In this document: piece by piece, positions 1,257 to 60,624 of the stretch
Layout of the letters: every line of letters starts with the position of its first letter
Numbering within the stretch: position 1 is the stretch's first letter
Source: Frigoribacterium sp. Leaf263
Lineage (GTDB): Bacteria; Actinomycetota; Actinomycetes; Actinomycetales; Microbacteriaceae
NCBI RefSeq assembly: GCF_001422285.1
Contig: NZ_LMMO01000004.1
Coordinates: 436,983-500,982 of the forward strand
Direction of reading: 5' to 3'
Length of the DNA stretch: 64,000 nt
The notes under the pieces: generated by a model
What the model saw: the letters and a program-made list of their open reading frames with translations, nothing else
Told to the model about the DNA's origin: nothing
The model's database searches: none
Made by a program: the position numbers and the translations under genes

Positions 1257-3149
1257 TCAGCGACCGCTGCGCTGGCCGCCGCCGGTGCGGGCCTTGCCGC
1301 CGACGAGGCCGCCGACCTTGAGCGAGCCGGGGCGACCGCCCTCCGAGGAGGCGCGGCGTCCGCCGGAGCGCTGCCCGCCTTCGCGGGGGCCGCCCTGCGA
1401 TGCGGCGAAGTCGGCCTGGTCGTTGCGCACGGCGTTGGTGCGGCTCTGACCGCCGTCGCTCTGGGCACGGCGACCGGTCTGGCGGGTGCCACGCGTCTCG
1501 TCACGGCCGGCGTCGCGCCCGGCGTCACGGCCGCCCTCGCGGACGGGCGTCACCGCGCCGCGCCCGGACTCCGTCGAGTAGAACGTCGAGGCTCCGCCAC
1601 GGGGGGCGGCGTCGCGGCGCGCACCGCCGTCGCGGCCGGCACCCTGGCGTCCGCCGTCACGCGAGCCACCCGAGCGAGCGGCACCGTCGCGACCGCGACC
1701 GGCGTCGGATGAGCGACCCGCGCCTCCTTGGCGTCCGTCGCGCGAGCCGCCGGCCGAGGCCGCGGGGCGACCCGAGCGGTCCTGGCGGGCGATGGGGTTG
1801 CCCTGCGAGTCCTGACGGGCGGCGCGCTTGCGCTGCGCGTTGGCGCCCTGCGAGCGACCGCCGCCGCCCTGCTGCTGCTGGACGGCCGCGCGGGGGGCCG
1901 GCTTCACGTAGGCGGCGACCTCGCCGACCAGCGCGGCGACCTCGGGCGAGGACGGCACGACGGCGGTGATGGTCGGACGGATGTCGGCCTTCTTCATCAG
2001 CTGGGCGACGTCGCGCTTCTGGCTGGGGATGACGAGGGTGACGACGTCGCCCTCGGCTCCGGCGCGGGCGGTGCGGCCCGAGCGGTGCAGGTACGCCTTG
2101 TGCTCGGTGGGCGGGTCGACGTGGATGACGAGCTCGATGTCGTCGACGTGCACGCCACGGGCGGCGACGTCGGTGGCGACGAGCACGCGGGCCGAGCCGT
2201 CCTGGAAGGCGGCGAGGTTGCGGTCGCGCTGAGGCTGCGAGAGGTTGCCGTGAAGGTCGACGGCGGGGATGCCGGCGTCGGTCAGCTTCTTGGCGAGCTT
2301 CTTGGCGTGGTGCTTGGTGCGCATGAAGAGGATGCGGCGCCCCTTGCCGCCGGCGAGCGTCTGCACGAGGGCGTTCTTGCTGTCGACGTCGGGCGTCTCG
2401 AACACGTGGTGGGTCATCTTGGCGACGGGCGAGTTGGCCTCGTCGACCGAGTGCAGCACCTCGTTGTGGAGGAACTGCTTGACCAGCTTGTCCACGCCGT
2501 TGTCGAGGGTGGCGCTGAAGAGGAGGCGCTGGCCGTCGTTCGGGGTGGCCTTCAGGATGCGCGTGACGCCGGGCAGGAACCCCAGGTCGGCCATGTGGTC
2601 GGCCTCGTCGAGCACGGTGATCTCGATGGCGTCGAGCTTCACGAAGCCCTGCTTCATGAGGTCCTCGAGGCGACCGGGGCAGGCGATGATGATGTCGACG
2701 CCGGCTTTGAGGGCCTGCACCTGACGGTTCTGCGAGACGCCGCCGAAGATGGTGGTGGTGCGCATGCCGTAGGCCGCGGCGAGCGGGGCCAGGACGGCGT
2801 CGATCTGCGTGGCGAGCTCGCGGGTGGGGGCGAGCACCAGACCGAGGGGGCGACCGGCGCGACGCTGGCCGCCGGCGAGCTTGCCGCCGAGACGGGCCGC
2901 CATGGGGATGGAGAACGCGAGGGTCTTGCCCGAGCCGGTCTTGCCGCGACCGAGCACGTCGCGCCCGGCGAGCGTGTCGGGGAGGGTGTCGACCTGGATC
3001 GGGAAGGCGTTGGTCTTGCCCTCTGCCGCGAGCGACTTGACGATCGGGGCGGGGACGCCGAGCGAGCTGAAGGTGACGGTGTCGGTCGTCTCGTCGACGG
3101 TCGAGCCGTCGGGGGTGGTGTTCTCGGTGTCGAGTGTGGTGGTTGACAT
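1257..3149 (-). CDS. DEAD-box ATP-dependent RNA helicase with RG-rich tail
   Basis: A 630-residue helicase of the DeaD/RhlE group that remodels structured RNA in the cytoplasm. In order: Q-motif region (FSSLGVPAPIVKSL), motif I GKTGSGKT, Ia PTRELATQ, motif II DEAD, motif III SAT, then the second RecA fold with VATDVAARG and HRSGRTARAG (motif VI). After about residue 430 comes a disordered tail of Arg, Gly, Ser and Asp, typical of actinobacterial homologues and probably RNA-binding. ATG 3149 is chosen because AAAGGTG precedes it; the frame stays open upstream but without helicase homology. A long untranslated stretch precedes it, as often seen for cold-induced helicases (inference). The repeat word occurs at 1715-1727 inside the tail, and a variant runs over the stop codon. 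Confidence 0.92.
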   Translation of the reverse strand: MSTTTLDTENTTPDGSTVDETTDTVTFSSLGVPAPIVKSLAAEGKTNAFPIQVDTLPDTLAGRDVLGRGKTGSGKTLAFSIPMAARLGGKLAGGQRRAGRPLGLVLAPTRELATQIDAVLAPLAAAYGMRTTTIFGGVSQNRQVQALKAGVDIIIACPGRLEDLMKQGFVKLDAIEITVLDEADHMADLGFLPGVTRILKATPNDGQRLLFSATLDNGVDKLVKQFLHNEVLHSVDEANSPVAKMTHHVFETPDVDSKNALVQTLAGGKGRRILFMRTKHHAKKLAKKLTDAGIPAVDLHGNLSQPQRDRNLAAFQDGSARVLVATDVAARGVHVDDIELVIHVDPPTEHKAYLHRSGRTARAGAEGDVVTLVIPSQKRDVAQLMKKADIRPTITAVVPSSPEVAALVGEVAAYVKPAPRAAVQQQQGGGGRSQGANAQRKRAARQDSQGNPIARQDRSGRPAASAGGSRDGRQGGAGRSSDAGRGRDGAARSGGSRDGGRQGAGRDGGARRDAAPRGGASTFYSTESGRGAVTPVREGGRDAGRDAGRDETRGTRQTGRRAQSDGGQSRTNAVRNDQADFAASQGGPREGGQRSGGRRASSEGGRPGSLKVGGLVGGKARTGGGQRSGR

Positions 3150-3596
3150 GTGGTGCACCTTTCGGGGCATCGGTGTCGAGCCGGGCCAGGCTGCGTGACC
3201 ACCGTGACGGGCGACGACGTCGTGCTGACGTGTTCGCGCGAGGGCGGGGCAGAGCCGGGAGAACGGCTGTCGTAGCCGGGCTCGAGATGTGGCGACGGTG
3301 CAGGTGTGCACGATCGTTTCGCCGCAGAGTGAGCTTCGCGCGCCTGCTGGCTGCCTGGGTGTGTGCCAGGACGGGAGAGGCGGGGAGGGGCGTGCTACGA
3401 CGCAGGGAGCCGGTCAGGCCGACTCGCAAGTGATCCCAGCTTAGCGGAGGTGCACGGAAAGCGCGACGGGGGTGCCCGAGGAGGCGCGGGTCCTCTACGA
3501 GTGGGGGCTAGCGGGCCCCTCCGGGGATGACGTTCTTCACCCCTCAGCGTCAGCCAGGCGACTTCGAAAGCATCAAGCCCCCGTTCGAACGACGCC
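3150..3596. other. 447-bp intergenic region between two minus-strand genes
   Basis: No convincing gene. It should contain the promoter and leader of the helicase on the minus strand; I see no clear -35/-10 pair. A perfect GAGGAGGCGCGGGTC repeat sits at 3478-3492. No strong hairpin is obvious after the DUF1684 start side. Confidence 0.5.
3478..3492 (+). repeat. Intergenic copy of the 15-base GAGGAGGCGCGGGTC repeat
   Basis: Perfect copy of the longest form of the repeat, in non-coding DNA far from any start codon, so it is not acting here as a ribosome-binding site. Confidence 0.8.
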
Positions 3597-4316
3597 TCAG
3601 CGCACCGTCCCGTACCGCTCGCCCACCGGGATCTCCACGGCGACCGTGTTGCCCGGCTGGGCGAGGGGGCAGGCCCAGGCGGGGTCGTAGGCGCAGCTCG
3701 GGTTGTAGGCGAAGTTGAAGTCGAGCACGATCGTGCCGGGCTCGGTGCCCGCGCCGAGGTCGGCGCCCTTGACCGAGTCGATCAGGTAGCGGCCGCCGCC
3801 GTACGTGCCACCGGGCCTGCCTGCCAGGGCGTCCTTCACGGGCACGAACAGGCCCCCGCCGTACTGCACCAGCTTCCACACGTCGAGCCGCCCGACGCCG
3901 GGCACGCTCGCCACCCCGACGAGGTCGAACTGCACATCGCCGTCGGTGCCCGTCTCGACGACCATGCGTCGCGTCTCGACCGGCTCGACGACGACCTCGA
4001 ACCGCCAGGCCGGGTCGTACGGAGTCGTCGGAAGCCCGGTGAACCCGGGGCGGTCCTCGGGCAGCAGAGGCGTCGACGGGTGGGTGGTGAAGAGCTCGTC
4101 GCGGGTGCGCCGCCAGAGGTCGTGCGCCTCGACCAGATCGGCCGACTCGCGTACATCGCGGTAGAGGCGGTGGATCGTCCGACGCCACGACGCGATGTCG
4201 AGCGCCCCCTGCGCCGCACTCGGCCTCGCCGGGGCGAGCACGTCGACGGCCACGGCCTCGCCGGGCGTCGTGAGGTCGGAGGCGGAAGCTGAGGAGGCGC
4301 GGGTCGGGTCGGTCAC
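3597..4316 (-). CDS. DUF1684 domain protein
   Basis: About 239 residues, cytoplasmic, no signal or membrane segment. The C-terminal part holds the DUF1684 hallmark NPSCAYDPAWACPLAQPGN, preceded by a YLIDS segment and followed by VAVEIPVGER. The N-terminal part (SWRRTIHRLYRDVR) matches the usual start of this family. Biochemical role is unknown. I place the start at GTG 4316 because TACGGT (minus strand) lies 7 bases ahead, the leaderless arrangement common here; GTG 4325 is the in-frame alternative. The N-terminus contains the repeat word (4293-4305), translated TRASS. Confidence 0.85.
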   Translation of the reverse strand: MTDPTRASSASASDLTTPGEAVAVDVLAPARPSAAQGALDIASWRRTIHRLYRDVRESADLVEAHDLWRRTRDELFTTHPSTPLLPEDRPGFTGLPTTPYDPAWRFEVVVEPVETRRMVVETGTDGDVQFDLVGVASVPGVGRLDVWKLVQYGGGLFVPVKDALAGRPGGTYGGGRYLIDSVKGADLGAGTEPGTIVLDFNFAYNPSCAYDPAWACPLAQPGNTVAVEIPVGERYGTVR

Positions 4317-4403
4317 GTCACCCACCGTACGCAGCGCCTCCGACAGTGCTCGCGCCTCCTTCTCAGGTCCGCGACGCGGCCGCCCACGGCCTCGGAACGC
4401 CCT

Positions 4404-4943: not shown

Positions 4944-4958
4944 GAGGAGGCGCGGGTC
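4944..4958 (+). repeat. Intergenic copy of the 15-base repeat
   Basis: Perfect GAGGAGGCGCGGGTC between the divergent SRPBCC (minus) and ComB-like (plus) genes. Confidence 0.8.
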
Positions 4959-5023: not shown

Positions 5024-5620
5024 ATGAACACGCACGGCCAGCAGAAGTACCAGGTCAGGCTCGACCACGGCATCGCCGGAGCCGGCCGCATCGCACCCGG
5101 CGCCCACCTCGTCGTGGTCGTCGACGCCCTCGACGGGCACGGGCTGCTCTCGACCGACGAGACGGTCGCCGCCGTGCTCGACGCCGTCGCGGAGGCGTCC
5201 GAAGGGGCTGACCGGAGCGAGGGCGCCGATGCCACCGAGCGCGGCGACGGGCCCGTGCACGCCGAGACCGTCGAGGTGCTGCTCGTGACGACCCCCGCCG
5301 ACGCCGACGGCGTCGCCCGCCGCGTGCTCGAGCGGCAGGCCGACCGGGGCGACCGCGCCGTCGTCGCGATCGTCGCCGCCGGCGCCGTCGAGCCCGACGG
5401 CTTCCGCCCTGCGGTCGAGGACCAGCTCGCCGCCGGAGCCGTCGTCGACGCGCTCGCCGCGGTCGGCATCGACTCGTCGTCGCCCGAGGCGGCCGTCGCC
5501 TGCGCCGCCGCGGTGTCGCTCCGGCGGGCGACGTCGCACCTGCTCACGGCGTCGGCCTCGGCGGGAGAGCTCGTCGCGACCGGCCGGGCCGACCTCGTGT
5601 CGGCCACCCGCGCCTCCTGA
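5024..5620 (+). CDS. ComB-like (2-phosphosulfolactate phosphatase family) protein
   Basis: A 198-residue protein that opens like ComB family members: a GIAGAGRIAP turn followed by a hydrophobic strand HLVVVVDAL, then an Ala-rich region with a VAIVAAGAVE strand. It lacks the clear catalytic signature I would expect of a true ComB, so enzyme activity is uncertain. ATG 5024 follows TACTGT by 6 bases, suggesting a leaderless mRNA. Its last codons and stop are written by the repeat: ACCCGCGCCTCCTGA ends the gene as TRAS-stop. An array of degenerate copies follows directly. Confidence 0.5.
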   Translation: MNTHGQQKYQVRLDHGIAGAGRIAPGAHLVVVVDALDGHGLLSTDETVAAVLDAVAEASEGADRSEGADATERGDGPVHAETVEVLLVTTPADADGVARRVLERQADRGDRAVVAIVAAGAVEPDGFRPAVEDQLAAGAVVDALAAVGIDSSSPEAAVACAAAVSLRRATSHLLTASASAGELVATGRADLVSATRAS

Positions 5621-5722
5621 GCTGCGCCGCGCCTCCTGAGTCGCGCCGGTGCCTCCTAGCCCGGCCCGCGCCTCCTGAACCGGCCCGCGCCTCCTGAGAC
5701 GCGCCGCGCCTCCTGAGCCGCG
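5604..5722 (-). repeat. Tandem array of the repeat, 19-base period, minus orientation
   Basis: Six consecutive units of 17-20 bases, each ending CGCGCCTCCTGA or a one/two-base variant (GGTGCCTCCTA), followed by a decayed seventh. The first unit includes the stop codon of the ComB-like gene. No ORF explains it. The core CGCGCCTCCT is the reverse complement of the dispersed AGGAGGCGCG repeat. Confidence 0.85.
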
Positions 5723-6106: not shown

Positions 6107-6109
6107 CCC

Positions 6110-6124
6110 GAGGAGGCGCGGGTC
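6110..6124 (+). repeat. 15-base repeat directly after a stop codon
   Basis: Perfect GAGGAGGCGCGGGTC between the DUF427 stop codon and the terminator hairpin. TGACCC precedes it, so TGACCCG and CGGGTCG form a short inverted pair. Confidence 0.75.
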
Positions 6125-7368: not shown

Positions 7369-7425
7369 GGCGACGTCAGGACTCGCGGGGAGGGCAGGAG
7401 GTGCGGGTGCGGTGGGAGGCGCGGG

Positions 7426-8544
7426 TCACCGCGACGGGAACGGCCAGGTCGTCGGCCGGTCGTCGTCGGGCAGACCCTCGACGACCCCGGTGACGCCCGT
7501 GGCGCCCGGGCGGGTCGTGTCGTCGTCGTGGTCGGAGTCCGTGCCGCGGCCGCCGCGAGGGGCGGAGTCGCGGAAGCGGTCGCCCTCTCGGTGCCCGGCG
7601 GCGTTCGCGGCGAGGCTCGAGATCTTGCCCCAGAGGCTGGTGTCGGCGCGGACGGGACGGTCGGACTCGGCCGCCGCTCGCTCGGCGGCCCGTTCGTCAC
7701 GACGGGTCGCGCGGTCGTGCGAGTCGTCCGTCCGCGTGGCGGCCGCCCGGGCGGCTGCGGCGGGGTCGACGGCCACCGGCTCGGCGACGGGGTCGACGGC
7801 CGCGGGGTCGGACAGCGCCGTCGAGGGCAGGCCCGCGGTGGGGTTCGTGTCGCCGGGGCGGGGGGCGTCGAGAGGGGCGTCGGAGACGTGCGCCGCGCCT
7901 CCTTCGCTGATGTCGGCGGGTGCGGCCGGCGCGTCGTCGGGCGCGAGATACGCCCGGAGGACGTCGTCGAACGCGTTCTGCAGATCGGTGACGCGGTCGC
8001 GCGGAGCCCCGGTGGCCGCGTAGGCGGTCAGGGACTGCGCCAGGTTCTCGCGGGCCTCGTCGTGCCGCTCGAGCTCGAGCAGCGTGTAGCCCTCGAGCTC
8101 GGCGGCGGCGGCCTCGAGCTCGCGCCATTCTTCGGTGGCGGCCGTGATGCGGCTCGTGTGCAGATCGTTCAGGGCGCGATCGAGCTTGCCCTGCTCGCGG
8201 AAGATGTGAGCGCGGCGGATGCGCGCGGCCGTCGAGTCGGCCCGGTCGCCTGTGAAGTGCGCGAGCCGGAAGGCCTCTTCGGCGATGGCCAGGGCCTCGT
8301 CGAGTCGACCCAGCAGACGCAGCAGATCGGCGCGCTCGCCGAGGGCCGAGGTGCTGCGGCTCTGGCCGAGAGCGGCCAGACGGGCTTCGGCCGAGGGGAC
8401 GTCGACCGCCGTGCGCAGGCTGATCGGCTCGAAGCCGCCGGCCCCACCGAGACGCGTGCCCGTGGGCGCGGCGAGACCCGGCGGCACGCTGTGGGGACGG
8501 GCGCTGCCGGGTGCGGTTCCGAGGTGGGGGTCGTGCTCGCTCAT
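7426..8544 (-). CDS. TPR-like helical-repeat protein with disordered tail
   Basis: A 372-residue protein, no known enzyme motif. Residues about 50-170 form paired helices of TPR type (LGERADLLRLLGRLDEALAIA, AFRLAHFTGDRADS, GYTLLELERHDEARENL), suited to protein binding. The rest is Ala, Asp, Arg and Pro-rich and likely unstructured. ATG 8544 (MSEHDPHLG) is chosen over an upstream in-frame ATG because the extra residues are low-complexity. Its stop codon is embedded in the repeat (7415-7427 reads TGACCCGCGCC on the coding strand). Confidence 0.65.
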   Translation of the reverse strand: MSEHDPHLGTAPGSARPHSVPPGLAAPTGTRLGGAGGFEPISLRTAVDVPSAEARLAALGQSRSTSALGERADLLRLLGRLDEALAIAEEAFRLAHFTGDRADSTAARIRRAHIFREQGKLDRALNDLHTSRITAATEEWRELEAAAAELEGYTLLELERHDEARENLAQSLTAYAATGAPRDRVTDLQNAFDDVLRAYLAPDDAPAAPADISEGGAAHVSDAPLDAPRPGDTNPTAGLPSTALSDPAAVDPVAEPVAVDPAAAARAAATRTDDSHDRATRRDERAAERAAAESDRPVRADTSLWGKISSLAANAAGHREGDRFRDSAPRGGRGTDSDHDDDTTRPGATGVTGVVEGLPDDDRPTTWPFPSR

Positions 8545-8628: not shown

Positions 8629-8716
8629 GGGAGGCGCTGGTCGGGAGGCGCGGAGCAGGGGCCCGGCGCGGAACGCGAGGCGCGGGTCGGGAGGCGCGGG
8701 TCAGGGTGCGCGGGTC
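8629..8716 (+). repeat. Tandem array of the repeat, 14-base period
   Basis: Five 14-base units in the same phase: GGGAGGCGCTGGTC, GGGAGGCGCGGAGC, an 18-base interruption, GCGAGGCGCGGGTC, GGGAGGCGCGGGTC, AGGGTGCGCGGGTC. The last two overlap the stop codon and final codons of the minus-strand dehydrogenase gene. The rest is intergenic. Confidence 0.85.
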
Positions 8717-11351: not shown

Positions 11352-12770
11352 CTACCTCCCGACCCGGCCCATGCCGTTGATGAGCGTGTCGAGCATCTCG
11401 TCGATGGCTGTCATGACTCGGGCCGCTCCCTGATAGGCGTGCTGGTACGAGAGGAGGTTCACATTCTCCTCGTCGAGGCTGACCCCGGCGCCCGAGAGCT
11501 GACGGTTCTTCGCCGAGTTCGCGGCGAGGTCGGTGAGGGTCGCCTGCTGCGATTCGCTCTTCGCGGTCGCCCCGATGCCGGCGACGATGGTCGACCAGGC
11601 GCGATCGGGTGAGCCGGGGCCGACGCCGAGCTGCGCGATGGCGAGGGCGATCGTGTTGTCGTGCGCGCCTCCCACGCCGTCGCCGGTGGCGATCCCCGCT
11701 GCTCCGGCGACCTGAACGGTGAGGCTGCGGGCGGCCGACAGGCCGGGCGTGACCGAGAAGAAGTCGCCCCCGGCGTCGCCACCCGTCGTGACTCCGGTGC
11801 GGTGCACGGCGTTGACCTGCGTGGCCAGCTGCGTCGCGAGGGCGTCGTACGATGCCGCGGCCTCCGCGAGCGTGCCGCCGGCGCCGCCCGCGGCGGGCTG
11901 CAGCAGCGACACGGTGCCGGCGAGGCTGCCGCCGGTGAGCGGGATGGGCTGCCCGGGGCGGTCGGCCCATTCGACCGAGACGCCGCCCCCTGAAGCGAGG
12001 GCGTAGTCGCCGGCCACGGTGACGGTGCGGGCCGAGGTGCCGCTGACCAGGGCGTTCCCGCCGATCAGCACATCGACGGTGCCGTCGCCCGCGTCGCGGA
12101 CGGTACCGCCTGCGATCGCCGCGATGCGCTCGGTGAGCACCGAGCGGGCGTCGATCAGCTCGTTCGAGCCGACGCCGAGCTGCGTGTTCGTGCGGATGCG
12201 GTCGTTGAGGTCGGCGACCTGCGTCGCCGCGCTGTTCAGCTCGGATGCGAGACCGTCGGCCTGCAGTCGGAGTCCGGTCCACTGCTCGTCGACGGCACGG
12301 TGCCCGGCCGAGAGCGCGGCGGCCAGCGAGGTGGCCTGGCCGATCAGCACGGCAGCGGGGCCGGAGTCGCCCGGGTTGTTCGCGACGTCGCCCCAGGCCG
12401 ACCAGAACGCGTTCAGCTGACTCGCGATGCCGTTCGTCGACGGCTCGCCGAGCGACGCCTCGAGGGTGGCGATCGCGGAGGCGCGGGTCGACTGGTACCC
12501 GGCGGTCGAGGCCGCGCTCCGCACCTGACCGTCGACGACCTGGTTGCCGAGCCGTGCGATGGCGTCGACCGAGACGCCCTGGCCGGGCACGACGCCGGCG
12601 CTGAAGATCCCGGCACGGGCGGGCGACTCGATCGACGAGGTCGCGACGCGCTGGCGGGTGTAGCCGTCGGTGTTGACGTTGGCGATGTTCTGCCCCGTGA
12701 CGTCGATGCCCGCACGAGCGGCGGCGAGGCCGGAGTAGGCGGTGTTCAGCCCACCGAAGGTGCTGCCCAT
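11352..12770 (-). CDS. flgK: Flagellar hook-associated protein FlgK (HAP1)
   Basis: A 472-residue protein. The N-terminus (GLNTAYSGLAAARAGIDVTGQNIANVNTDGYTRQ in family order) has the rod/hook/HAP motif, and the C-terminus (VSLDEENVNLLSYQHAYQGAARVM) is the D0 helix with the usual EE-N-L-YQ pattern. The central domain is compact. ATG 12770 is set by the family N-terminus; the frame stays open upstream. It lies 2 bases after flgN in the same operon. Repeat word at 12477-12489, translated TRAS, in a non-conserved stretch. Confidence 0.95.
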   Translation of the reverse strand: MGSTFGGLNTAYSGLAAARAGIDVTGQNIANVNTDGYTRQRVATSSIESPARAGIFSAGVVPGQGVSVDAIARLGNQVVDGQVRSAASTAGYQSTRASAIATLEASLGEPSTNGIASQLNAFWSAWGDVANNPGDSGPAAVLIGQATSLAAALSAGHRAVDEQWTGLRLQADGLASELNSAATQVADLNDRIRTNTQLGVGSNELIDARSVLTERIAAIAGGTVRDAGDGTVDVLIGGNALVSGTSARTVTVAGDYALASGGGVSVEWADRPGQPIPLTGGSLAGTVSLLQPAAGGAGGTLAEAAASYDALATQLATQVNAVHRTGVTTGGDAGGDFFSVTPGLSAARSLTVQVAGAAGIATGDGVGGAHDNTIALAIAQLGVGPGSPDRAWSTIVAGIGATAKSESQQATLTDLAANSAKNRQLSGAGVSLDEENVNLLSYQHAYQGAARVMTAIDEMLDTLINGMGRVGR

Positions 12771-18054: not shown

Positions 18055-18517
18055 CGCCCCCGGTGCCGGGACGGCGCCCGAGTCCGTCGCCGCGCCTCGC
18101 GTCGCGGCGCCTCGCGTCGCCGCGCCTCGCGTCGCCGCGCCTCGCGTCGCGGTGCCGCACGACGCGGCGTCGCACGATGCGGCGTCGCACGACGCGGTGT
18201 CGCGCGTCGCGGCCTGGTCCGTCGTGCTCGACGACCTCGAGGCCCGTGTCACCCGCCTCGAACGCGACGGACGTCCCGGTGTCACGGGGCGCGCCGACGC
18301 CGACGGGACGGACCCCGCCTGGACGGCGCCCACGGGGCTCGGACCGGTGCCGTCCGTGCTGACGACCCGCGCCTCCTCGGTGCTGGCCCGTCAGCGTGCG
18401 GTGCTCCGCTCGCTGGTCGACGACCGGGCCGAGGTCGTGCAGCAACTCGGCGCCGTCCGCCGGGTCGAGGCGTCGCACGAGCCCGGTCGGCCCGTGTACC
18501 TCGACGCCCTGGGCTGA
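18044..18517 (+). CDS. FliT-position protein of unknown family with repeat tract
   Basis: A 157-residue protein starting at GTG 18044, with GGGAGG 8 bases upstream, overlapping fliS. Gene order (fliD-fliS-x) is that of fliT, the FliD chaperone, and residues 60-157 look helical (DDLEARVTRLERD, SVLARQRAVLRSLVDDRAEVVQQL), but I see no direct FliT signature. Residues 16-56 are encoded by two sets of 15-base tandem repeats, giving four APRVA units and three HDAAS-like units, probably a flexible spacer of variable length. The repeat word at 18364-18376 is translated TRASS. Confidence 0.55.
   Translation: MSPDAPGAGTAPESVAAPRVAAPRVAAPRVAAPRVAVPHDAASHDAASHDAVSRVAAWSVVLDDLEARVTRLERDGRPGVTGRADADGTDPAWTAPTGLGPVPSVLTTRASSVLARQRAVLRSLVDDRAEVVQQLGAVRRVEASHEPGRPVYLDALG
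18091..18201 (+). repeat. Two adjacent 15-base tandem repeat sets inside a coding region
   Basis: Four near-identical 15-base units (CGCGCCTCGCGTCGC, 18091-18150) then three units (GCACGACGCGGCGTC-like, 18157-18201). Each unit is five codons, so copy-number change keeps the frame. Confidence 0.85.
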
Positions 18518-18627: not shown

Positions 18628-18682
18628 CGTGCGCGGGCTCGGCGTCGTGGGTGGCGGCTCGCGCGGGGTCAGGAGGCGCGGG

Positions 18683-20239
<1,557 letters not shown>

Positions 20240-20324
20240 CCGAACTCCTTCGTCCGTGAGCGGCACCGTGGGGGAGCCGAGCGTGTCCGGGCACGCTAGC
20301 CGCGCCTCCTCGGCCCTGTCGCGC

Positions 20325-20372: not shown

Positions 20373-20437
20373 TGCTCACCCCCGCGGTGACCCGCCGCGG
20401 CCCGTGGGTGAGGGCCGAGGGCACGGCCCACGGACCG

Positions 20438-20452
20438 CAGGAGGCGCGGGTC
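20438..20452 (+). repeat. Intergenic copy of the repeat upstream of the sensor kinase
   Basis: CAGGAGGCGCGGGTC, 31 bases before the kinase GTG start, in the divergent region. Confidence 0.7.
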
Positions 20453-20482
20453 GGCCCGACCGCGCCCGGTACCCTGGCCCAC

Positions 20483-23055: not shown

Positions 23056-23123
23056 CCCGCCCCGCGCCTCCTCGGCTCGATCCTCTCCGCGCCCCCACTA
23101 CGGGGCGGCCCGCGCCGGGCGGC

Positions 23124-30828: not shown

Positions 30829-33074
<2,246 letters not shown>

Positions 33075-41555: not shown

Positions 41556-41583
41556 TAACGCCCGGGAGGCGCGGGTCGATAGG
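41556..41583 (+). promoter_or_regulatory. Sigma-28 promoter of the fliM export operon, overlapping a repeat copy
   Basis: TAACGCC, 12 bases, GTCGATAGG. The exact repeat word (41565-41577) fills the spacer and forms the first bases of the -10. The GTG start of fliM is only 8 bases downstream, so the transcript should be leaderless or nearly so. Confidence 0.78.
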
Positions 41584-43256: not shown

Positions 43257-43883
43257 GTGGACGCGGTCTTCGTCGGGCTCCGTGTCGTCCTGTCGCTCGG
43301 GGTCGTGCTCGCCCTGCTCTACGTCCTGCAGAAGCGCATCGTCACGGGCGGCCGCTCCGGTCGTCAGACGTCTCAGGTGACGGTCGTCGCGCGCCAGGGC
43401 ATCGGCGCGAAGGCCAGCGTCGTCGTGGTCGACGTCGAGGGCGAGCGGCTCGTGCTCGGCGTCACCGACGCGTCCGTCACCGTGCTGGCGGCCGCCGACC
43501 GGCCGGTCGAACCGGTCGCCCTCGAGCTCGTGGCCGGTTCGAGCGACGCGCCTCCGGCGGCTCAGGAGGCGCGGGTCACCCCGATCGCGCCCCTCCCGTC
43601 GTCCGCCGCCTCCTCGGCCCCCGCCTTCGCCGCCGTCCTCTCCGCCCACGCCGCCCCCAGCGCCGCACCGGTCGCCGAGCCCGCCCGCGCATCGGCCGCC
43701 GACGCGCCGATGCTCCGACCGCGGGGTGCGGCCCGCCGCGCCACGGTCGTCCGCGAGCGCGCCCCCCGCGACGTCGCGGCCCGTCGCCGCGGTCGCACCG
43801 CCGAGGCGCTCGACGGCTCGATCCTCTCGCCCGGCACCTGGCGTCAGGCGGCGGCCGCCCTCCGCAGCGGGCGAGCCGGATGA
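43257..43883 (+). CDS. fliO: Flagellar export protein FliO
   Basis: A 208-residue protein starting at GTG 43257. One membrane helix (LRVVLSLGVVLALLYVLQKRI) then the FliO core VTVVARQGIGAKASVVVVDV and ERLVLGVTDASVTVL; FliO helps FliP assemble. The remaining 120 residues are Ala/Pro/Arg-rich and disordered. Exact repeat word at 43565-43577, read in frame as EARV. Confidence 0.85.
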   Translation: MDAVFVGLRVVLSLGVVLALLYVLQKRIVTGGRSGRQTSQVTVVARQGIGAKASVVVVDVEGERLVLGVTDASVTVLAAADRPVEPVALELVAGSSDAPPAAQEARVTPIAPLPSSAASSAPAFAAVLSAHAAPSAAPVAEPARASAADAPMLRPRGAARRATVVRERAPRDVAARRRGRTAEALDGSILSPGTWRQAAAALRSGRAG

Positions 43884-44995
43884 CCCTCCGCGCCCCGTCC
43901 GCCCGGACGACCCGCGCCTCCTTCGTCACCGCCGTCGCCCGTCTCGTCGGCCCCACGGTCCGTGACGGCCTGCGCGGTCGTGCGCCGGTCGCCCGTCACG
44001 CCGCCGTCCGGGTGGCCCCGCTCGCCGACCGGCGCCGTCTCGCCCGCCACGCCCTCGGCGCCGCGCCCGTCGGCGCCGCCCCGCTGCGCTTCGCCGACAC
44101 CCGCCTCGCGCGCACCGTCGTCGTCGCCCTGCTCGCGATGATCGTCGCGTCGGGTCTCATCATGCTGATCGGTCAGACGGCCCTCGCCGCGCCCGTCGAG
44201 CCCACCGCTCCCACCGCGCCCGTCGATCCCGGCACCGACGCCCCGGGCACCGAGGGCTCCACCGGCACGACGCCGACCGACTTCACCGACGACGATCAGA
44301 CCCAGCCCGACGGCGGCGGCACGGGCGGTCTGAACATCGACATCAACGGCCCCGACGGCGCCCCGAGCACGGCGGTCGTCACGCTGCTCGGCATCACGCT
44401 GCTCAGCGTCGCGCCGGCGCTGCTGCTGATGATGACGTCGTTCACGAAGATCTTCGTGGTGCTGGCGATGACCCGCAACGCGCTCGCGCTGCCGTCGATC
44501 CCGCCGAACCAGGTGCTGGCCGGGCTCGCGCTGTTCCTCAGCCTGTTCATCATGGCTCCGATCCTCGAGCACATCAACGTCGACGCGGTGCAGCCCTACC
44601 TCGACGGGACGATCGACTTCCCAGCCGCCGTCGACGCCGGCAGCGCACCGCTCCGCGAGTTCATGCTCGCCCACACCCGCCAGGAGGACCTGGCGCTGAT
44701 GACGCGCTCGGCGGACCAGCCGAACCCCGACAGCCAGGCCGACGTGCCCATGCTGACGCTCATCCCGTCGTTCATGATCAGCGAGCTGCGCGCCGCATTC
44801 ATCATCGGCTTCGTCATCTTCATCCCGTTCCTCGTCATCGACCTCGTCGTCAGCGCCGCCCTCATGTCGATGGGCATGATGATGCTCCCGCCGGTGATGA
44901 TCTCGCTGCCGTTCAAGATCCTGCTGTTCGTGCTGGTCGACGGCTGGGGGCTCATCATCACGAGTCTCATCGAGAGCTATCAGGTGACCGCCTGA
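43880..44995 (+). CDS. fliP: Flagellar export channel protein FliP, long N-terminal extension
   Basis: A 371-residue protein; typical FliP is about 245. The conserved part starts near residue 160: LLSVAPALLLMMTSFTKIFV, RNALALPSIPPNQVLAGLAL, FLSLFIMAPILEHIN, then LTLIPSFMISELRAAFIIGF and the final hydrophobic FKILLFVLVDGWGLI. The first 110 residues are Arg/Ala-rich with a hydrophobic stretch (VVVALLAMIVASGLIMLIGQ) that may be a cleaved signal, followed by a Pro/Thr/Asp linker. A repeat word (43909-43921) falls in the extension (TRASF). Overlaps fliO by 4 and fliQ by 1. Confidence 0.94.
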   Translation: MTLRAPSARTTRASFVTAVARLVGPTVRDGLRGRAPVARHAAVRVAPLADRRRLARHALGAAPVGAAPLRFADTRLARTVVVALLAMIVASGLIMLIGQTALAAPVEPTAPTAPVDPGTDAPGTEGSTGTTPTDFTDDDQTQPDGGGTGGLNIDINGPDGAPSTAVVTLLGITLLSVAPALLLMMTSFTKIFVVLAMTRNALALPSIPPNQVLAGLALFLSLFIMAPILEHINVDAVQPYLDGTIDFPAAVDAGSAPLREFMLAHTRQEDLALMTRSADQPNPDSQADVPMLTLIPSFMISELRAAFIIGFVIFIPFLVIDLVVSAALMSMGMMMLPPVMISLPFKILLFVLVDGWGLIITSLIESYQVTA

Positions 44996-46039: not shown

Positions 46040-47299
46040 ATGGCCGACGACTCCGGCGAGCGGTCCGAGGACGCGACGCAGAAGCGGATGAAGGAGGTCC
46101 ACTCCAAGGGCCAGCTCTCGCGCTCGCAGGACCTCAGCGCCTGGCTCGGCGTCGGCGCCGCGGCCGTCATGATCCCGACGACGATCGAGCGCGGCGCCGA
46201 GGCCGGCACCGATCAGCTCCTCTCGATCGGTCAGGCCATCCGGCACCCCGACGCGCAGACCGTCGTGACCCTGCTCGGCGACGGCGTCGGCTCGATGGCG
46301 GCGACGATCGGCCCGATGCTCGCCGTCGTCGGCGTCGTGGTGCTCCTCACCGCGATCGTGCAGGGCGGCGTCCACATCAAGCGGATGACGGGCAACTACG
46401 AGCAGTTCAACCTGATCAACGGTCTGAAGACGACGTTCGGCGGGCAGGCGCTGTGGAACGGCGCGAAGGCCCTGATCAAGACCGCCGTCGTCGGGCTCGT
46501 GCTGTGGATGGCCATCCAGGGGCTCATGCCGGTGCTGATGAGCGGCGGCGGGCTGAGCGTCTCGGCGCTGCTCGACGAGGCGACCTCGGGCACGGCGATC
46601 CTCCTCCAGGCCGCCGTCGTCGCCGGTCTCGTGCTCGCCGCGGCCGACGTCTTCGTCGTCATGCGCCGCAACCGCAAGAAGACCCGCATGACCAAGAAGG
46701 AGGTGCGCGACGAGAACAAGAGCACCGACGGCGATCCCCTGGTCAAGTCGCAGCGCCGTTCGCGGCAGCTCGCCATGAGCCGCAACCGCATGATGGCCTC
46801 CATCGCCGACGCCGACGTGGTGATGGTCAACCCGACCGACTACGCCGTGGCGATCCGGTACGAGCCGGGTCGCTCCGCCCCGCGCGTCGTGGCGAAGGGC
46901 GCGGGCGCGACCGCCGCCCGCATCCGCGAGAAGGCCGCGGCCGACGGCGTCCCCCTCGTCGAGGACGTCCCGCTGACCCGGGCCCTGCACGCGAACTGCG
47001 GTCTCGGCGACGAGATCCCCGTCGACCTCTACACCCCGGTCGCCCGGGTGCTGACCTTCGTCATGGCCCTCCGGGCGCGCGGCGCGTCGGCGGTCGCGGG
47101 CACGCACGCGAACCCCCGTCCGACCACGCCCGACGAGGTCGCCGCCGTGCTCACCCCCGGGTCGCTCGCGGCCGAGGCGGTGCCGCAGCGTCTGCGGATC
47201 GCGCGCGACTCGTCCGCCGCACCCGCGCCTCCGGGGCCCGCCGCCCTTCGCACCGCCCGCCCCGCTCCCCGCCCGTCCGCCTCCGGAGGAACCGCCTGA
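46040..47299 (+). CDS. flhB: Flagellar export switch protein FlhB with NPTD cleavage site
   Basis: A 419-residue protein. N-terminal GERSEDATQKRMKEVHSKGQ, four membrane helices, KKTRMTKKEVRDENKSTDGD linker, then the C-terminal domain with MVNPTDYAVAIRYEPGRSAP. The auto-cleavage motif, normally NPTH, reads NPTD. Cleavage switches export from hook to filament proteins. After the usual end (VARVLTFVMALRARG) there is an extra tail of about 75 Pro/Ala/Arg-rich residues. Confidence 0.94.
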   Translation: MADDSGERSEDATQKRMKEVHSKGQLSRSQDLSAWLGVGAAAVMIPTTIERGAEAGTDQLLSIGQAIRHPDAQTVVTLLGDGVGSMAATIGPMLAVVGVVVLLTAIVQGGVHIKRMTGNYEQFNLINGLKTTFGGQALWNGAKALIKTAVVGLVLWMAIQGLMPVLMSGGGLSVSALLDEATSGTAILLQAAVVAGLVLAAADVFVVMRRNRKKTRMTKKEVRDENKSTDGDPLVKSQRRSRQLAMSRNRMMASIADADVVMVNPTDYAVAIRYEPGRSAPRVVAKGAGATAARIREKAAADGVPLVEDVPLTRALHANCGLGDEIPVDLYTPVARVLTFVMALRARGASAVAGTHANPRPTTPDEVAAVLTPGSLAAEAVPQRLRIARDSSAAPAPPGPAALRTARPAPRPSASGGTA

Positions 47300-49350
47300 T
47301 GAAGAAGACACTCCCCAAGCTCGCCGTCCCGGTGGGCATCGTCGGGATCGTCCTGCTGCTCGTGGTGCCGGTGCCGGCCCCGATGCTCGACGTGCTGATC
47401 ATCCTCAACATCCTGCTGGCGCTCGTGATCCTGCTGACGACCCTCTTCGTGAAGAAGCCGCTCGACTTCTCGGTGTTCCCGTCGCTGCTGCTCGTGGCGA
47501 CGCTGTTCCGCCTCGGGCTCAACGTCGCGTCGACCCGTCTCGTGCTCGGCGAGGGATTCGCCGGCCAGGTCATCGAGGCCTTCGGGCACGTGGCGGTCAG
47601 CGGGTCGATCATCATCGGCTCGGTGATCTTCCTGATCCTCGTGGTCATCCAGTTCGTCGTCGTGACGAAGGGCGCCGAGCGCGTGGCCGAGGTCGGGGCG
47701 CGCTTCACGCTCGATGCGATGCCGGGCAAGCAGATGGCGATCGACGCCGATCTGAACGCCGGGCTGATCACCGACGAGGTCGCGAAGCAGCGCCGCGCCG
47801 ACGTCAGCGCCGAGGCCGACTTCTACGGCGCGATGGACGGCGCGTCGAAGTTCGTCAAGGGCGACGCGATCGCCGGCATCATCATCATCATCATCAACCT
47901 GGTCGGAGGCGTCGCGATCGGCGCCCTGCAGAACGGCATGGCGATCGGCGAGGCCCTGAACCACTACGGGCTGCTGACCATCGGCGACGGTCTGGTCACC
48001 CAGATCCCCGCGCTGCTCATGGCCGTCTCGACCGGCATGATCGTCACCCGATCGGGCGCCGACAGCGACATGGGCTCGCAGGCCGCGACGCAGCTCGGCC
48101 AGTCGCGCATCGCGATCGGGATCGCCGGGGTCGCCGCGATCGGCATGGGGTTCATCCCGGGCATGCCCATCGCCGCGTTCCTCGTGGTGGGCGTCACGCT
48201 GCTGATCGTCGCCCAGCGGCTCGCGGCGAAGGCGAAGGCCGAGGAGGCGCGCGCGGCTCTCGAGAGCCGGCGCGCCGAGGTCGTCGCCCCCACCGACACC
48301 ACCGACGACCTGCTCGAGCAGATGCGGGTGCACGCGCTCGAGATCCTGCTGGCGCCCGACCTCGTCGACATGGTCGGCGGGTCGTCCGACGACCTGCTCG
48401 GACGGGTCAAGGCGCTGCGGCGCAAGATCGCCGTCGACCTCGGCATCGTCGTGCCGCCGGTGCGCACCCGGGACAGCGTCGACCTGCCGCCCTCGACGTA
48501 CTCGATCCGCATCGCGGGGGTCGAGGCCGGTCGCGGCCAGGCCCCGGCCCGCTCGGTCCTGGCCCTCGGCGAGGGCCTCGACGGCCTGCCGGGCACGGCG
48601 ACCGTCGAGCCGGTGTTCGGCCTCGCGGGCAAGTGGGTGCCCGCCGAGATGCGGCACAGCGCGGAGATGACCGGCGCGACCGTGATCGACCGGGTCTCGG
48701 TGCTCGTCACCCACCTCTCGTCGATCATCGCCGACAACGCCGCGCGGCTGCTCAGCCGCGAGGACGTCCGGGTGCTGACCGATGGCGTCAAGCAGGTCAA
48801 CCCCTCGGCGATCGACGACCTCGTGCCCGGCATGCTGTCGCTCGCCGAGCTGCAGCGCGTGCTGCAGGGGCTGCTGGCCGAGCGGGTGCCGATCAACGAC
48901 CTCGGTCGGATCTGCGAGGGGCTGACCCTGCGCGCCAAGGTGTCGACGGACCCCGAGGGACTCGTCGAGGCGGCCCGCGCCTCCCTCGGTCCCGCCCTGT
49001 CGGCCCGTCACCTCGACGGCGCCGTGCTGCGCGTCATCATGATCGACCCGGGTCTCGAGCAGTCGATGCTCGAGGGGCTGCGGCCGTCGGATCAGGGCAC
49101 GCAGATCCTGCTCGACGGGCACCGGGTCGAGCAGGTGCTCGGTTCGCTGCGCGACTCCGTGGCGGCGGTCGAGTCGCAGGGGCTCAGCGCCGTGCTCGTC
49201 TGCGCGCCGGCGCTCCGGCCCGCGATCCACCGACTCGTCTCGGCGCAGCAGAACGGCCTGCCGGTCCTGTCGTACCAGGAGGCGACGGCGGCCGGGTCGA
49301 CCATCGAGACCGTCGGCGTCGTGCGCGCCAGCGACGCGATCGTGGCCTGA
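47299..49350 (+). CDS. flhA: Flagellar export gate protein FlhA
   Basis: A 683-residue protein: eight membrane helices with LVATLFRLGLNVASTRLVL, the FHIPEP-region equivalent MPGKQMAIDADLNAGLITDE, FYGAMDGASKFVKGDAIAGI and IPALLMAVSTGMIVTR, then the cytoplasmic ring domain that docks chaperones (RALTDGVKQVNPSAIDDLVPG-like, LLAERVPINDLGRI). ATG 47299 overlaps the flhB stop. Length is usual. Confidence 0.96.
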   Translation: MKKTLPKLAVPVGIVGIVLLLVVPVPAPMLDVLIILNILLALVILLTTLFVKKPLDFSVFPSLLLVATLFRLGLNVASTRLVLGEGFAGQVIEAFGHVAVSGSIIIGSVIFLILVVIQFVVVTKGAERVAEVGARFTLDAMPGKQMAIDADLNAGLITDEVAKQRRADVSAEADFYGAMDGASKFVKGDAIAGIIIIIINLVGGVAIGALQNGMAIGEALNHYGLLTIGDGLVTQIPALLMAVSTGMIVTRSGADSDMGSQAATQLGQSRIAIGIAGVAAIGMGFIPGMPIAAFLVVGVTLLIVAQRLAAKAKAEEARAALESRRAEVVAPTDTTDDLLEQMRVHALEILLAPDLVDMVGGSSDDLLGRVKALRRKIAVDLGIVVPPVRTRDSVDLPPSTYSIRIAGVEAGRGQAPARSVLALGEGLDGLPGTATVEPVFGLAGKWVPAEMRHSAEMTGATVIDRVSVLVTHLSSIIADNAARLLSREDVRVLTDGVKQVNPSAIDDLVPGMLSLAELQRVLQGLLAERVPINDLGRICEGLTLRAKVSTDPEGLVEAARASLGPALSARHLDGAVLRVIMIDPGLEQSMLEGLRPSDQGTQILLDGHRVEQVLGSLRDSVAAVESQGLSAVLVCAPALRPAIHRLVSAQQNGLPVLSYQEATAAGSTIETVGVVRASDAIVA

Positions 49351-49351: not shown

Positions 49352-50431
49352 ATGGCGCCCACACGGGTGGTCGTCACGGGCGACTCCCTCGACGAGCTGC
49401 GGCGGCGCGTGCGCGAGGCCCACGGCCCGGGCGCGCGGATCGTCGCGGCCCAGCGGGTGACCGTCGGGGGAGTGGGCGGGCTCTTCGCCCGCAAGCACTA
49501 CGAGGCGACGGTCGACGTGCCCGACCCGACGACCGACCAGCCGTCGGCGCGCGTCACCATCACCGCTCCAGCGTCGCGGGCGGGCATCGCCGCGCTGCTG
49601 GCCGACGCCGACGCCGCCGACGGGTTCACCCCCGCGTCGGAGGCCCCGGCCGCGGCGTCCTCTCCCGCGGCGTCCGCTCCCGCGGATCCGTTCGATCGGG
49701 TCCTCGCCGGGGGTCGCCCGGCTGCCGACAGCCCCCGTCGCGCCGCGCGCGCCGCGGCGGACGCGGCGTCCGCGGCCTCGGCGCCCGCTGCCGCTCCGTC
49801 GCCCGCGACGCCCCAGCCGGCGACCCGGGGCGACGCCTTCGCCGAGATCATGGACGACCTCACCTTCAACGGCATCGCTCCCGCCCCCGCCGTGGCGGCC
49901 GCCGCGGTCGAGGAGGTGCGACCGGGCCCCCTGACGAACGCCGCGGAGTTCCTCGCCGCAGCCGCCGTCGCCTCGTCCCCCGCACCCGTCGCGCGGTCCG
50001 GCGACGACGTGCCCGCGCCTCCCGCGCTCCTGACCGGTCCCGGCGACCTCGTCGTCGTCGTGGGCCGCCCGGGCGACGCGTTCCGGGTGGCGGCGCAGAT
50101 GGCGGCGACGTTCGGGCTGCGGTCGGTCGACGTCGCCGATCGGCGCAGCGCGATCCTGGCGCGGGCCGAGGGGGTCAACGGCGGCACGGCCGTGGTCACC
50201 GCGCTCGCCTGGGACGCCGCGGCCGGCGACGCCCTGCGGTCGATGGCCGCCGACCAGGTGTGGGTCGCCGTCGACGTGGGGCGCAAGCACGACGACACGG
50301 CCCGCTGGGTCGAGGAGGTGCGGGTCGTCTCGTCCGTGGCCGCCGCGGCGGTCGTGGGCGAGGCCGACACCGCGACGCCGGGCACGGTGCACCTGCTGGG
50401 CGTGCCGGTCGGGTGGCGGGAGTCCCTCTAG
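49352..50431 (+). CDS. FlhF-like protein without a P-loop
   Basis: A 359-residue protein in the position of flhF. The N-terminal 60 residues match FlhF (SLDELRRRVREAHGPGARIV, then GGVGGLFARKHYEATVDVP). A long Ala/Pro-rich linker follows, then a C-terminal segment where the GTPase should be: it begins DLVVVVGRPGDAFRVAAQMA, lacking the GxxGxGKT loop, and continues with strands LRSVDVADRRSAILARAE and QVWVAVDVGRKHDDTARW but no TAGR or TKxD motifs. It is therefore probably not an active SRP-type GTPase. FlhF normally sets flagellar placement. No flhG/minD-like gene follows. Confidence 0.6.
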   Translation: MAPTRVVVTGDSLDELRRRVREAHGPGARIVAAQRVTVGGVGGLFARKHYEATVDVPDPTTDQPSARVTITAPASRAGIAALLADADAADGFTPASEAPAAASSPAASAPADPFDRVLAGGRPAADSPRRAARAAADAASAASAPAAAPSPATPQPATRGDAFAEIMDDLTFNGIAPAPAVAAAAVEEVRPGPLTNAAEFLAAAAVASSPAPVARSGDDVPAPPALLTGPGDLVVVVGRPGDAFRVAAQMAATFGLRSVDVADRRSAILARAEGVNGGTAVVTALAWDAAAGDALRSMAADQVWVAVDVGRKHDDTARWVEEVRVVSSVAAAAVVGEADTATPGTVHLLGVPVGWRESL

Positions 50432-59517: not shown

Positions 59518-59554
59518 GGAGGTGCGGTGAGGGTCAGTCCCGCACCGCGCCTCC
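59518..59554 (+). terminator. First hairpin after rpoC, built from an inverted pair of repeat-like sequences
   Basis: GGAGGTGCGGTG (59518-59529) pairs with CACCGCGCCTCC (59543-59554), with one G-U. The right arm is a variant of the dispersed repeat, the left its imperfect inverse. Confidence 0.55.
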
Positions 59555-59566
59555 TCGAATCGACAC

Positions 59567-59604
59567 AGGGCCCCGGCCCACGCCTCGTGCGTGGCCGGGG
59601 CCCT
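59567..59604 (+). terminator. Strong terminator hairpin of the rpoBC operon
   Basis: AGGGCCCCGGCCCACGC (59567-59583) pairs with GCGTGGCCGGGGCCCT (59589-59604) with one bulged C and a five-base loop. Confidence 0.8.
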
Positions 59605-59618
59605 CCGTCGTCCCCGCC

Positions 59619-59963: not shown

Positions 59964-60078
59964 GCCGTCGACTCCCTCTGCATTGCGACCGTGATGTGAA
60001 GCATCGAACAGGTTCCCACGACGCGGTCGACGCGTCCAGCCGAGGCGTCGCCCCATGGTCGGCGATAGGGTCGGCGGC

Positions 60079-60624
60079 GTGCGCTATGAACGGCAGCTGT
60101 CCGACACGGTCGTCCTGAGGGAGGCGCGGGTCGCCGATGCCGCGTCGCTCGCCGCCGCCTACGACCGCAATCGCGATCACCTCGCCCCGTGGGACCCTGC
60201 GCGCCCGCCGTCGTTCTTCACGGAGCACGGTCAGCGGTCCATGCTGACCCAGAGGCTGGCGACCTCGGCGGCGGGGGAGGGGCAGTCGTTCCTCCTCGTC
60301 GAGGGCGCCGAGGTCGTCGGCGGCATCTCGCTCAATCAGATCGTGCGAGGCCCAGCCCAGCGGGCGACGGTCGGCTACTGGCTCGACCACGAGCACGTCG
60401 GTCGGGGTCTCGCGACGGCAGCGGTCGGTGCCGTCGTCGACTTCGCGACCGAGACCCTCCGTCTGCACCGCCTCGAGGCCGGCGCTCTGCCGCGCAACGC
60501 AGCCTCTCGGGCCGTGCTGTCCCGGTCGGGCTTCGTCGAGTACGGCTATGCGGCGAGCTACCTTCGCATCGCGGGCGCGTGGGAGGACCACGTGCTGTAC
60601 CACCGCCTCCTCGGCCCGGCGTAG
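60079..60624 (+). CDS. GNAT family N-acetyltransferase (RimJ-like)
   Basis: A 181-residue acetyltransferase. Opening strand VVLREARVADAASLAAAYDR, central FLLVEGAEVVGGISLNQI, acetyl-CoA loop HVGRGLATAAVGAVVDFA, and RLEAGALPRNAASRAVLSRSGF, the RimJ/RimL-type pattern for acetylation of protein N-termini or small amines. GTG 60079 is chosen because TAGGGT ends 7 bases before it, a leaderless start. The repeat word at 60120-60132 encodes REARV in a natural part of the fold. Confidence 0.85.
   Translation: MRYERQLSDTVVLREARVADAASLAAAYDRNRDHLAPWDPARPPSFFTEHGQRSMLTQRLATSAAGEGQSFLLVEGAEVVGGISLNQIVRGPAQRATVGYWLDHEHVGRGLATAAVGAVVDFATETLRLHRLEAGALPRNAASRAVLSRSGFVEYGYAASYLRIAGAWEDHVLYHRLLGPA

Follow-up and report, generated by a model that had tools for sequence, protein, structure and literature searches.

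The stretch studied here, referred to below as the window, comprises 64 kb of the genome of Frigoribacterium sp. Leaf263 (genome G000; 3.24 Mb in 10 contigs), and the element in question is a 13-base word, GGAGGCGCGGGTC, that recurs in it on both strands. An earlier note on this DNA had counted 22 exact copies of the word and had estimated that well under one per window would arise by chance. All 22 copies were found where the note had placed them (14 on the plus strand and 8 on the minus strand), and in 100 dinucleotide shuffles of the window the exact word appeared 0.03 times on average and never more than once, in line with that estimate. With one mismatch allowed, the window holds 39 copies against 1.36 expected. 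Genes were called with a simple codon-model script written for this analysis rather than with a published program. According to these calls, together with Pfam matches on stretches of five genes, rpoB, rpoC, rpsL, rpsG and the part of fusA that falls within the window are free of exact words, just as the note had said. The exact copies are as follows, with the strand of each coding sequence (CDS) given in brackets.

1715..1727, minus strand: exact word in CDS 1257-3170 (minus), sense
3480..3492, plus strand: exact word outside called genes
4293..4305, plus strand: exact word in CDS 3597-4325 (minus), antisense
4946..4958, plus strand: exact word outside called genes
6112..6124, plus strand: exact word, intergenic, 5 bases past the end of 5801-6106 (plus)
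7415..7427, plus strand: exact word overlapping the 3' edge of gene 7426-8544 (minus)
8690..8702, plus strand: exact word overlapping the 3' edge of gene 8701-9918 (minus)
12477..12489, plus strand: exact word in CDS 11352-12770 (minus), antisense
18364..18376, minus strand: exact word in CDS 18152-18517 (plus), antisense
18672..18684, plus strand: exact word overlapping the 3' edge of gene 18683-20239 (minus)
20440..20452, plus strand: exact word in CDS 20387-22333 (plus), sense
28002..28014, minus strand: exact word in CDS 27331-28173 (plus), antisense
32420..32432, minus strand: exact word outside called genes
32820..32832, plus strand: exact word in CDS 32529-33074 (plus), FliK-like, sense
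33029..33041, minus strand: exact word in CDS 32529-33074 (plus), antisense
36881..36893, minus strand: exact word in CDS 36828-38174 (plus), antisense
36949..36961, minus strand: exact word in CDS 36828-38174 (plus), antisense
39621..39633, plus strand: exact word in CDS 39345-39716 (plus), sense
41565..41577, plus strand: exact word, intergenic, 20 bases past the end of 40510-41544 (plus)
43565..43577, plus strand: exact word in CDS 43257-43883 (plus), sense; unchanged in G004, G015, G007 and G006
43909..43921, minus strand: exact word in CDS 43880-44995 (plus), antisense
60120..60132, plus strand: exact word in CDS 60055-60624 (plus), sense; unchanged in G002, G007 and G006

The genome as a whole carries 475 exact copies of the word (232 forward and 243 reverse), compared with a single copy of the reversed word that served as a control. 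Within a sample of 848.6 kb (26% of the genome, with 755 called genes), 70 exact words lie inside genes, whereas synonymous shuffling within genes leaves a mean of 2.95 (40 runs; single-strand maxima of 5 and 4) and shuffling of the codon order a mean of 0.43. The word is thus neither confined to the window nor explained by codon-preserving chance, the two outcomes that the earlier note had set against its own proposal. These data support the view that the word is favoured as DNA, with selection or drive acting on DNA rather than on a peptide, and the gap between the two null models suggests that protein sequence has been bent too. The note had argued for selection on DNA from the several frames in which coding copies are read; the conclusion stands, but the frames are used unevenly, 55 of the 70 copies falling in just two of them (EARV in sense, 21; TRAS in antisense, 34).

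The 13-base word proved to be the commonest form of a broader motif with the 10-base core GGAGGCGCGG. The 13-mer that the note had taken as the unit is indeed enriched (125 perfect copies in the sample, and 133 with a single mismatch where 18 are expected), but it is only one form of this motif, which ranked first at every length from 8 to 13 in de novo word counting over the 848.6 kb. The first 8 bases of the core, GGAGGCGC, are nearly rigid and accept almost no change, the main exception being C to T at the sixth base, and its last 2 bases are looser. Upstream, the preferred flank is CCGA, with CGA, GCA and TCA as the preferred heads, and downstream it is GTC, with TGC, CGC and GCC next in preference. 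Outside positions -4 to +16 of the word, the information in the flanks amounts to 0.00-0.23 bits, which makes it a word and not a piece of a longer repeat. These preferences vary between clades: an A before the core is weakly preferred in G006 (29%, versus 65-80% elsewhere), a genome with the variant words GGAGTCGCGGGTC and GGAGGCGGTGGTC, and full words are scarcer in clade C (G001, G007, G011 and G012), where GCC is one of the commonest tails. In the window the core occurs 47 times, 22 of these being the full word. The others are listed below and include a run of five at 5608-5713, all on one strand and spaced 19 or 39 bases apart.

180..189, plus strand: core with another tail
1347..1356, plus strand: core with another tail
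5608..5617, minus strand: core with another tail, in the run of five
5627..5636, minus strand: core with another tail, in the run of five
5666..5675, minus strand: core with another tail, in the run of five
5685..5694, minus strand: core with another tail, in the run of five
5704..5713, minus strand: core with another tail, in the run of five
7893..7902, minus strand: core with another tail
8644..8653, plus strand: core with another tail
20300..20309, minus strand: core with another tail
20999..21008, plus strand: core with another tail
21347..21356, minus strand: core with another tail
21458..21467, plus strand: core with another tail
23062..23071, minus strand: core with another tail
25031..25040, plus strand: core with another tail
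26973..26982, plus strand: core with another tail
32554..32563, minus strand: core with another tail
36819..36828, plus strand: core with tail TGC; a minus-strand core lies at 36884
40418..40427, minus strand: core with another tail
41389..41398, plus strand: core with another tail
47223..47232, minus strand: core with another tail
48975..48984, minus strand: core with another tail
50013..50022, minus strand: core with another tail
59545..59554, minus strand: core with tail TGC
62295..62304, plus strand: core with another tail

Across taxa, each of 16 Frigoribacterium genomes carries 141-553 exact words, whereas 44 genomes from elsewhere in the family and order have 0-5. The core reaches 842-1,725 copies per genome in the same 16, four of which hold fewer than 1,000; G000 has 1,421, or about one per 2.3 kb. 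This places the genus within the range of the DNA uptake sequence (DUS) and the uptake signal sequence (USS), which typically number about a thousand per genome or more. Of 108 family genomes outside the genus, by contrast, 88 have the core at or below its control and most of the others barely above it. Samples drawn from 19 of these genera, 20 kb long in 18 cases and 8 kb in one, contained 0-2 copies each. When contigs were scanned for an 18-base version of the word, 79 of the 106 matches listed belonged to Frigoribacterium, and the remaining 27 were single hits spread over unrelated organisms. The core is also raised in genus g76 (399 copies in G092, control 142; no copy in a 20-kb sample of that genome) and high in genus g53 (688 and 673 copies, controls 107 and 118). 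In g53, however, CCT precedes most copies where Frigoribacterium has CGA, and 8 of the 11 cores found in 40 kb lie outside called genes, several with longer shared flanks, so this may be a different, terminator-type repeat; some of these copies are 300-775 bases from a stop codon and may sit in genes that were not called.

We then compared orthologous sites by aligning the window region in G000 and ten relatives, taking 13-mers 30-60 bases away as controls and leaving out unaligned places (2 of 41 for G000 to G002, 60 of 164 for clade A to B, 43 of 104 for B to A). Between G000 and G002 the word is unchanged in 29 of 39 aligned comparisons (control 71/286; Fisher P 2e-9), from clade A to B in 47 of 104 (control 50/828; P 1e-23) and from B to A in 43 of 61 (control 35/446; P 1e-26), with the proviso that these P values are not independent, the genomes within a clade being related. 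Over 15 clade comparisons the ratio of the unchanged share of words to that of controls ranges from 1.8 (within B) to about 35 (C to B), and sequence around a persisting word has diverged, for example at 1715, 43565 and 60120. Of 16 aligned comparisons from clade C to A, 14 share the word, but from A to C only 14 of 65 do, which means that clade A has gained, or clade C lost, many words.

These alignments bear directly on the alternative that the earlier note had raised, a small spreading element, and on the related possibility of a functionless mutational by-product. The very high copy number and the local run of five cores would suit such an element, as would the predominantly non-genic cores of g53 with their longer common flanks. 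Around the Frigoribacterium words, on the other hand, we found no shared flank beyond about 20 bases, unlike the longer common sequence of repetitive extragenic palindromic (REP) or miniature inverted-repeat transposable element (MITE) families. Sites where relatives lack the word are gapped in 88 of 298 comparisons (30%), much the same share as for control sites (1,373 of 4,372, 31%), which leaves no insertion signature and agrees with the origin by point mutation, not insertion, that is typical of DUS and USS; gaps outnumber substitutions in 4 of 15 clade pairs (A to D 8/7, C to B 7/4, D to B 6/4, D to C 4/2). With the word staying in place while its surroundings change, this contrast in conservation largely refutes a spreading or functionless origin, which we regard as extremely improbable.

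The placement of the copies is uneven. Besides the 70 words inside genes (28 sense, 42 antisense), the 125 in the G000 sample include 44 that are intergenic and 11 that lie over a gene edge, in a sample whose bases are 16% non-coding; the intergenic enrichment for which the note had proposed a check is thus present. It extends to the core, 163 of whose 387 copies are not inside genes, as is also the case for DUS and USS. A stop codon is overlapped, or lies no more than 60 bases upstream, in 112 of these 163, although such places make up 20% of intergenic bases, and divergent intergenic regions hold only 3 of the 44 intergenic words despite contributing 22% of intergenic bases. Within 60 bases, 34% of the intergenic words have an inverted partner matching at 11 or more of 13 positions, as against 0.9% with shuffled flanks and 2.7% at random places, and 20% have a perfect one; for genic words the share at 11 or more of 13 is 4% (3/70) and for edge words it is 0 of 11. 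Closely spaced inverted pairs are a further trait of DUS and USS. The note's description of inverted pairs in terminators would thus apply to roughly a third of the intergenic copies in the genome sample, but exact pairs do not show it in the window, where no opposite-strand pair of exact words is less than 80 bases apart and the closest opposite-strand pair of cores is at 36819 (plus) and 36884 (minus).

Such a pattern is what might be expected if the word were a transcription-termination or RNA-processing element, that is, one arm of a gene-end hairpin whose coding copies are spill-over: the proximity to stop codons, the paired third of intergenic words and the near-emptiness of divergent regions would all fit. 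This is nonetheless quite improbable as the primary explanation, given that more than half of the exact words (70/125) lie inside genes, on both strands and nearly all without a partner, and that two thirds of the intergenic words are unpaired as well. Moreover, terminator function requires no one exact primary sequence, and unpaired genic words appear to be conserved as DNA, as indicated at single sites.

Chi, the site of RecBCD, and the FtsK-orienting polar sequences (KOPS) are short, polar, over-represented words known for strand skew, and Chi is read by RecC. The note had likened the present word to these, but it is longer and shows no polarity in the stretches read: its strands are balanced in two contiguous stretches of 360 and 344 kb (74/77 and 77/96), and cores in genes are divided 103 sense to 121 antisense, which, together with the genome-wide counts, matches the absence of orientation bias in DUS and USS. 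Orientation along the replichore, as in KOPS, was likewise not seen in these two stretches, in a genome whose replication origin and terminus were not located, and a KOPS-like polarity on contig C1 beyond about 460 kb was ruled out by 12 minus-strand copies in C1 460-660 kb. RecC (PF04257) is absent from all 13 Frigoribacterium genomes searched, which removes the reader of a RecBCD-Chi system. A more general version would have the word serve as a DNA-repair or chromosome-handling site, either Chi-like for a helicase-nuclease other than RecBCD, such as AdnAB, or bound by a nucleoid or segregation protein. This would account for a polar, non-palindromic motif that is found once per 2.3 kb or so and is conserved as DNA, and Chi, too, has lineage-specific variants. 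It seems rather unlikely, however, because of the balanced strands and because it gives no role to the inverted pairs or to the gene-end preference.

Word density also varies with base composition. Blocks of low G+C content (GC) have an observed/expected ratio of 17 (10 blocks), compared with 35 elsewhere (39 blocks), and one block, C6:1-20000, has no words at all. We make only weak use of the overall correlation with GC (rho 0.71), which mixes causes, as one low block contains a long stretch in which no gene was called and another resembles a ribosomal-protein region. The idea that low-GC blocks are imported islands was dropped: ten proteins from four low-copy blocks belong to ordinary families (metabolic, regulatory, transport and tRNA-synthetase), and no phage or transposon families are among these ten. 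High density on both strands and the thinning in low-GC blocks, with one block empty, would also be expected of a self mark that spares the chromosome from the nuclease or the spacer acquisition of a defence system. Yet the low-GC deficit would arise with any genus-specific word in imported DNA, some of the low blocks hold conserved genes, and neither the gene-end preference nor the inverted pairs would be predicted, which makes a defence mark very improbable.

Across the family, words of this kind turn up in many genera but differ in sequence. One of them, TCGCGGCATCCG, is found in 198 copies in G016 (control 1), while G021 has 64 and G017 has 27. Its core, CGGATGCCGC, reaches or exceeds both 150 copies and five times its control in 40 of the 110 genomes examined from the family, which cover 35 of 85 genera, with up to 1,702 copies and strand sums of 11,255 and 11,271. 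More than 1,000 copies of CGGATGCCGC per genome are present in the Microbacteriaceae G016, G139, G100, G063, G067 and G097. In 60 kb of G016, a single genome, 31 copies of CGGATGCCGC lie in genes, compared with 3.5 after synonymous and 0.74 after codon-order shuffling, and 36 perfect copies contrast with 36 summed over all 30 single-mismatch forms (28 expected). Both Frigoribacterium genomes of the 110 have CGGATGCCGC at or below control. Across the family, GGAGGCGCGG and CGGATGCCGC appear mutually exclusive, which is suggestive only and not significant, as just two genera are clearly high for GGAGGCGCGG. GGATGCCGCG bears a resemblance to GGAGGCGCGG (GGA-GC-GCG) that may be due to chance. The second word suggests the existence of dialects. 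A further candidate, CCTCGGCCGCCT, enriched in a 20-kb sample of G031, was dropped, as the genome holds 32 copies against a control of 12. Other repeated words were seen in samples of G021, G023, G030, G034 and G036; in G023 (L202), GGTTGAGGAG and GTCTCGAAACCC recur 5-7 times in 20 kb and are perhaps a REP-like element.

We also surveyed the genes for DNA uptake. G000 encodes ComEA, which has helix-hairpin-helix and SLBB domains, with ComEC after it. It also has a cluster of T2SSE (TadA), T2SSF (TadB) and DUF4244 proteins, together with a TadE/G-like match slightly below the cut-off and a small protein that matches nothing in Pfam. Taking DUF4244 to be the Flp pilin, we read this as a probable Tad/Flp cluster, and competence machinery, another trait of organisms with DUS or USS, would thus be represented in G000 at the level of genes. 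A T2SSE match of the Tad kind is present in all 16 Frigoribacterium genomes, and N-methyl pilins are present in 13 of them. A type IVa pilus was rejected as a requirement because G000, G002 and G005 are rich in words yet lack N-methyl pilins; any receptor must therefore sit elsewhere. In Micrococcus luteus, which like Frigoribacterium belongs to the Micrococcales, comEA and comEC are required for transformation. The ComEA, ComEC and Tad/Flp genes of that transformation system have counterparts in G000. Passages of two papers on M. luteus describe its tad genes as required for transformation (PMC4322843) and its comEA and comEC as present (PMC6370729).

Taken together, these observations make it probable that the word is a self-DNA recognition signal working like the DUS and USS of Neisseria and Haemophilus, a likeness that the earlier note had already drawn and that fits most of the features checked, spacing excepted; we do not file it as a proven member of that class. 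Measured against the uptake-sequence features set out in passages of PMC1626085, it agrees in copy number, strands, placement, inverted pairs, genus-wide occurrence and absence of insertion, but not in spacing. Like the DUS of Neisseriaceae, as described in parts of PMC3630211, it has a core of about 10 bases with weaker flanks, numbers roughly a thousand copies per genome or more, occupies both strands and permissive genic sites, forms inverted pairs at gene ends and has clade-specific dialects with a common core. It differs from DUS in its unrelated sequence, in its high-GC Gram-positive host and presumably in the reader, which for DUS is a ComP-type minor pilin; type IVa pilins were not found in the G000 clade. 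With the USS of Pasteurellaceae it shares abundance, lack of orientation bias, preference for non-coding DNA and no sign of insertion (as covered in the same passages of PMC1626085), and it differs in sequence, host lineage and machinery; its core is longer than the 9-base USS mentioned in part of PMC12616744.

If it is such a signal, Frigoribacterium would be, or would until recently have been, naturally transformable by way of ComEA, ComEC and the Tad/Flp pilus. One of the DNA-binding components of this machinery, at the cell surface or in the periplasm, would prefer double-stranded DNA with CCGA-GGAGGCGCGG-GTCG. Fragments bearing the word would enter cells more often than others and displace homologous alleles that lack it. 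By point mutation and biased recombination, the word would then build up on both strands wherever genes tolerate it, that is, at gene ends, in intergenic DNA and in variable protein segments, and inverted pairs after stop codons may secondarily have become hairpin terminators.

Several observations weigh against a recognition signal of this kind. Its spacing is not more regular than random (coefficient of variation 1.04 and 1.21, versus 0.95 and 0.94 for the null), whereas passages of PMC1626085 report that of DUS and USS to be so. The 3' tail of the word is loose, and in the G000 sample single-mismatch forms of the 10-mer core (605, 493 expected) outnumber perfect ones (387, 36 expected), where in DUS and USS perfect copies prevail, although the excess over expectation is smaller for the former (112) than for the latter (351). 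N-methyl pilins, and the much stronger matches to type IVa pilus ATPases (PilB/PilT-type), are missing among the 16 genomes only in G000, G002 and G005. ComEC is found in 43 of the 45 genomes searched, so the machinery leaves the restriction of the word to some genera unexplained. For CGGATGCCGC, 5 of 36 copies in G016 are non-coding where 10% of bases are, indicating no clear gene-end preference in that genome, and in 20 kb of G139 the figures are 3 of 14 and 12%. Among the papers searched, we found none combining Frigoribacterium with 'natural transformation', hence no transformation experiment, and the M. luteus study on tad genes (PMC4322843) does not use the term 'uptake sequence' in its main text.

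The Neisseriaceae and Pasteurellaceae are both Gram-negative. According to part of a 2025 paper (PMC12616744), specific binding to enriched short motifs at uptake is known only in these two families, and PMC10526031 states that no uptake sequence has been described for mycobacteria. No claim of an uptake sequence in Actinobacteria was found among the titles and abstract openings listed, preprints excluded. It is tempting to extend the proposal to the family, although we hold this wider version only tentatively, as a little short of an even chance: many Microbacteriaceae would have sequence-tagged uptake in dialects (CGGATGCCGC in many genera; CCGA-GGAGGCGCGG-GTC in Frigoribacterium; GGCCT plus core in g53), as a third independent lineage and the first Gram-positive one, read by a Tad pilus or ComEA instead of a type IVa minor pilin. 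If uptake tests bear out the signal in Frigoribacterium, it would be the first tag system of this sort among Gram-positive bacteria. Such a third case, in a high-GC Gram-positive lineage, would make the phenomenon independent of an outer membrane or type IVa pilus, and words from dozens of genera could be compared. Whether these words evolve through choice of the cell's own DNA or through molecular drive is debated, and the question could then be tested in a new lineage. The words might also offer a practical handle for transforming these bacteria.

Some minor observations concern the surroundings. Just past the window, L041:2255-4153 (G000:C4, about 503237-505135) contains a bacterial topoisomerase IB gene and a gene with a DarT domain, DarT being a single-stranded-DNA ADP-ribosyltransferase family; these genes sit roughly where relatives have type IVa pilins (in G015, about 14 kb past the rpoB start). 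The sampled stretches of G000 also contain 20 copies of TGACCCGCGCCTC, where 0.47 are expected, and a CTGGTGCTGGTGC-type repeat with about 22 counts. In G002 (L157-L160), a repeat containing CCAAAACGTTGCT is present in five copies in 74 kb.

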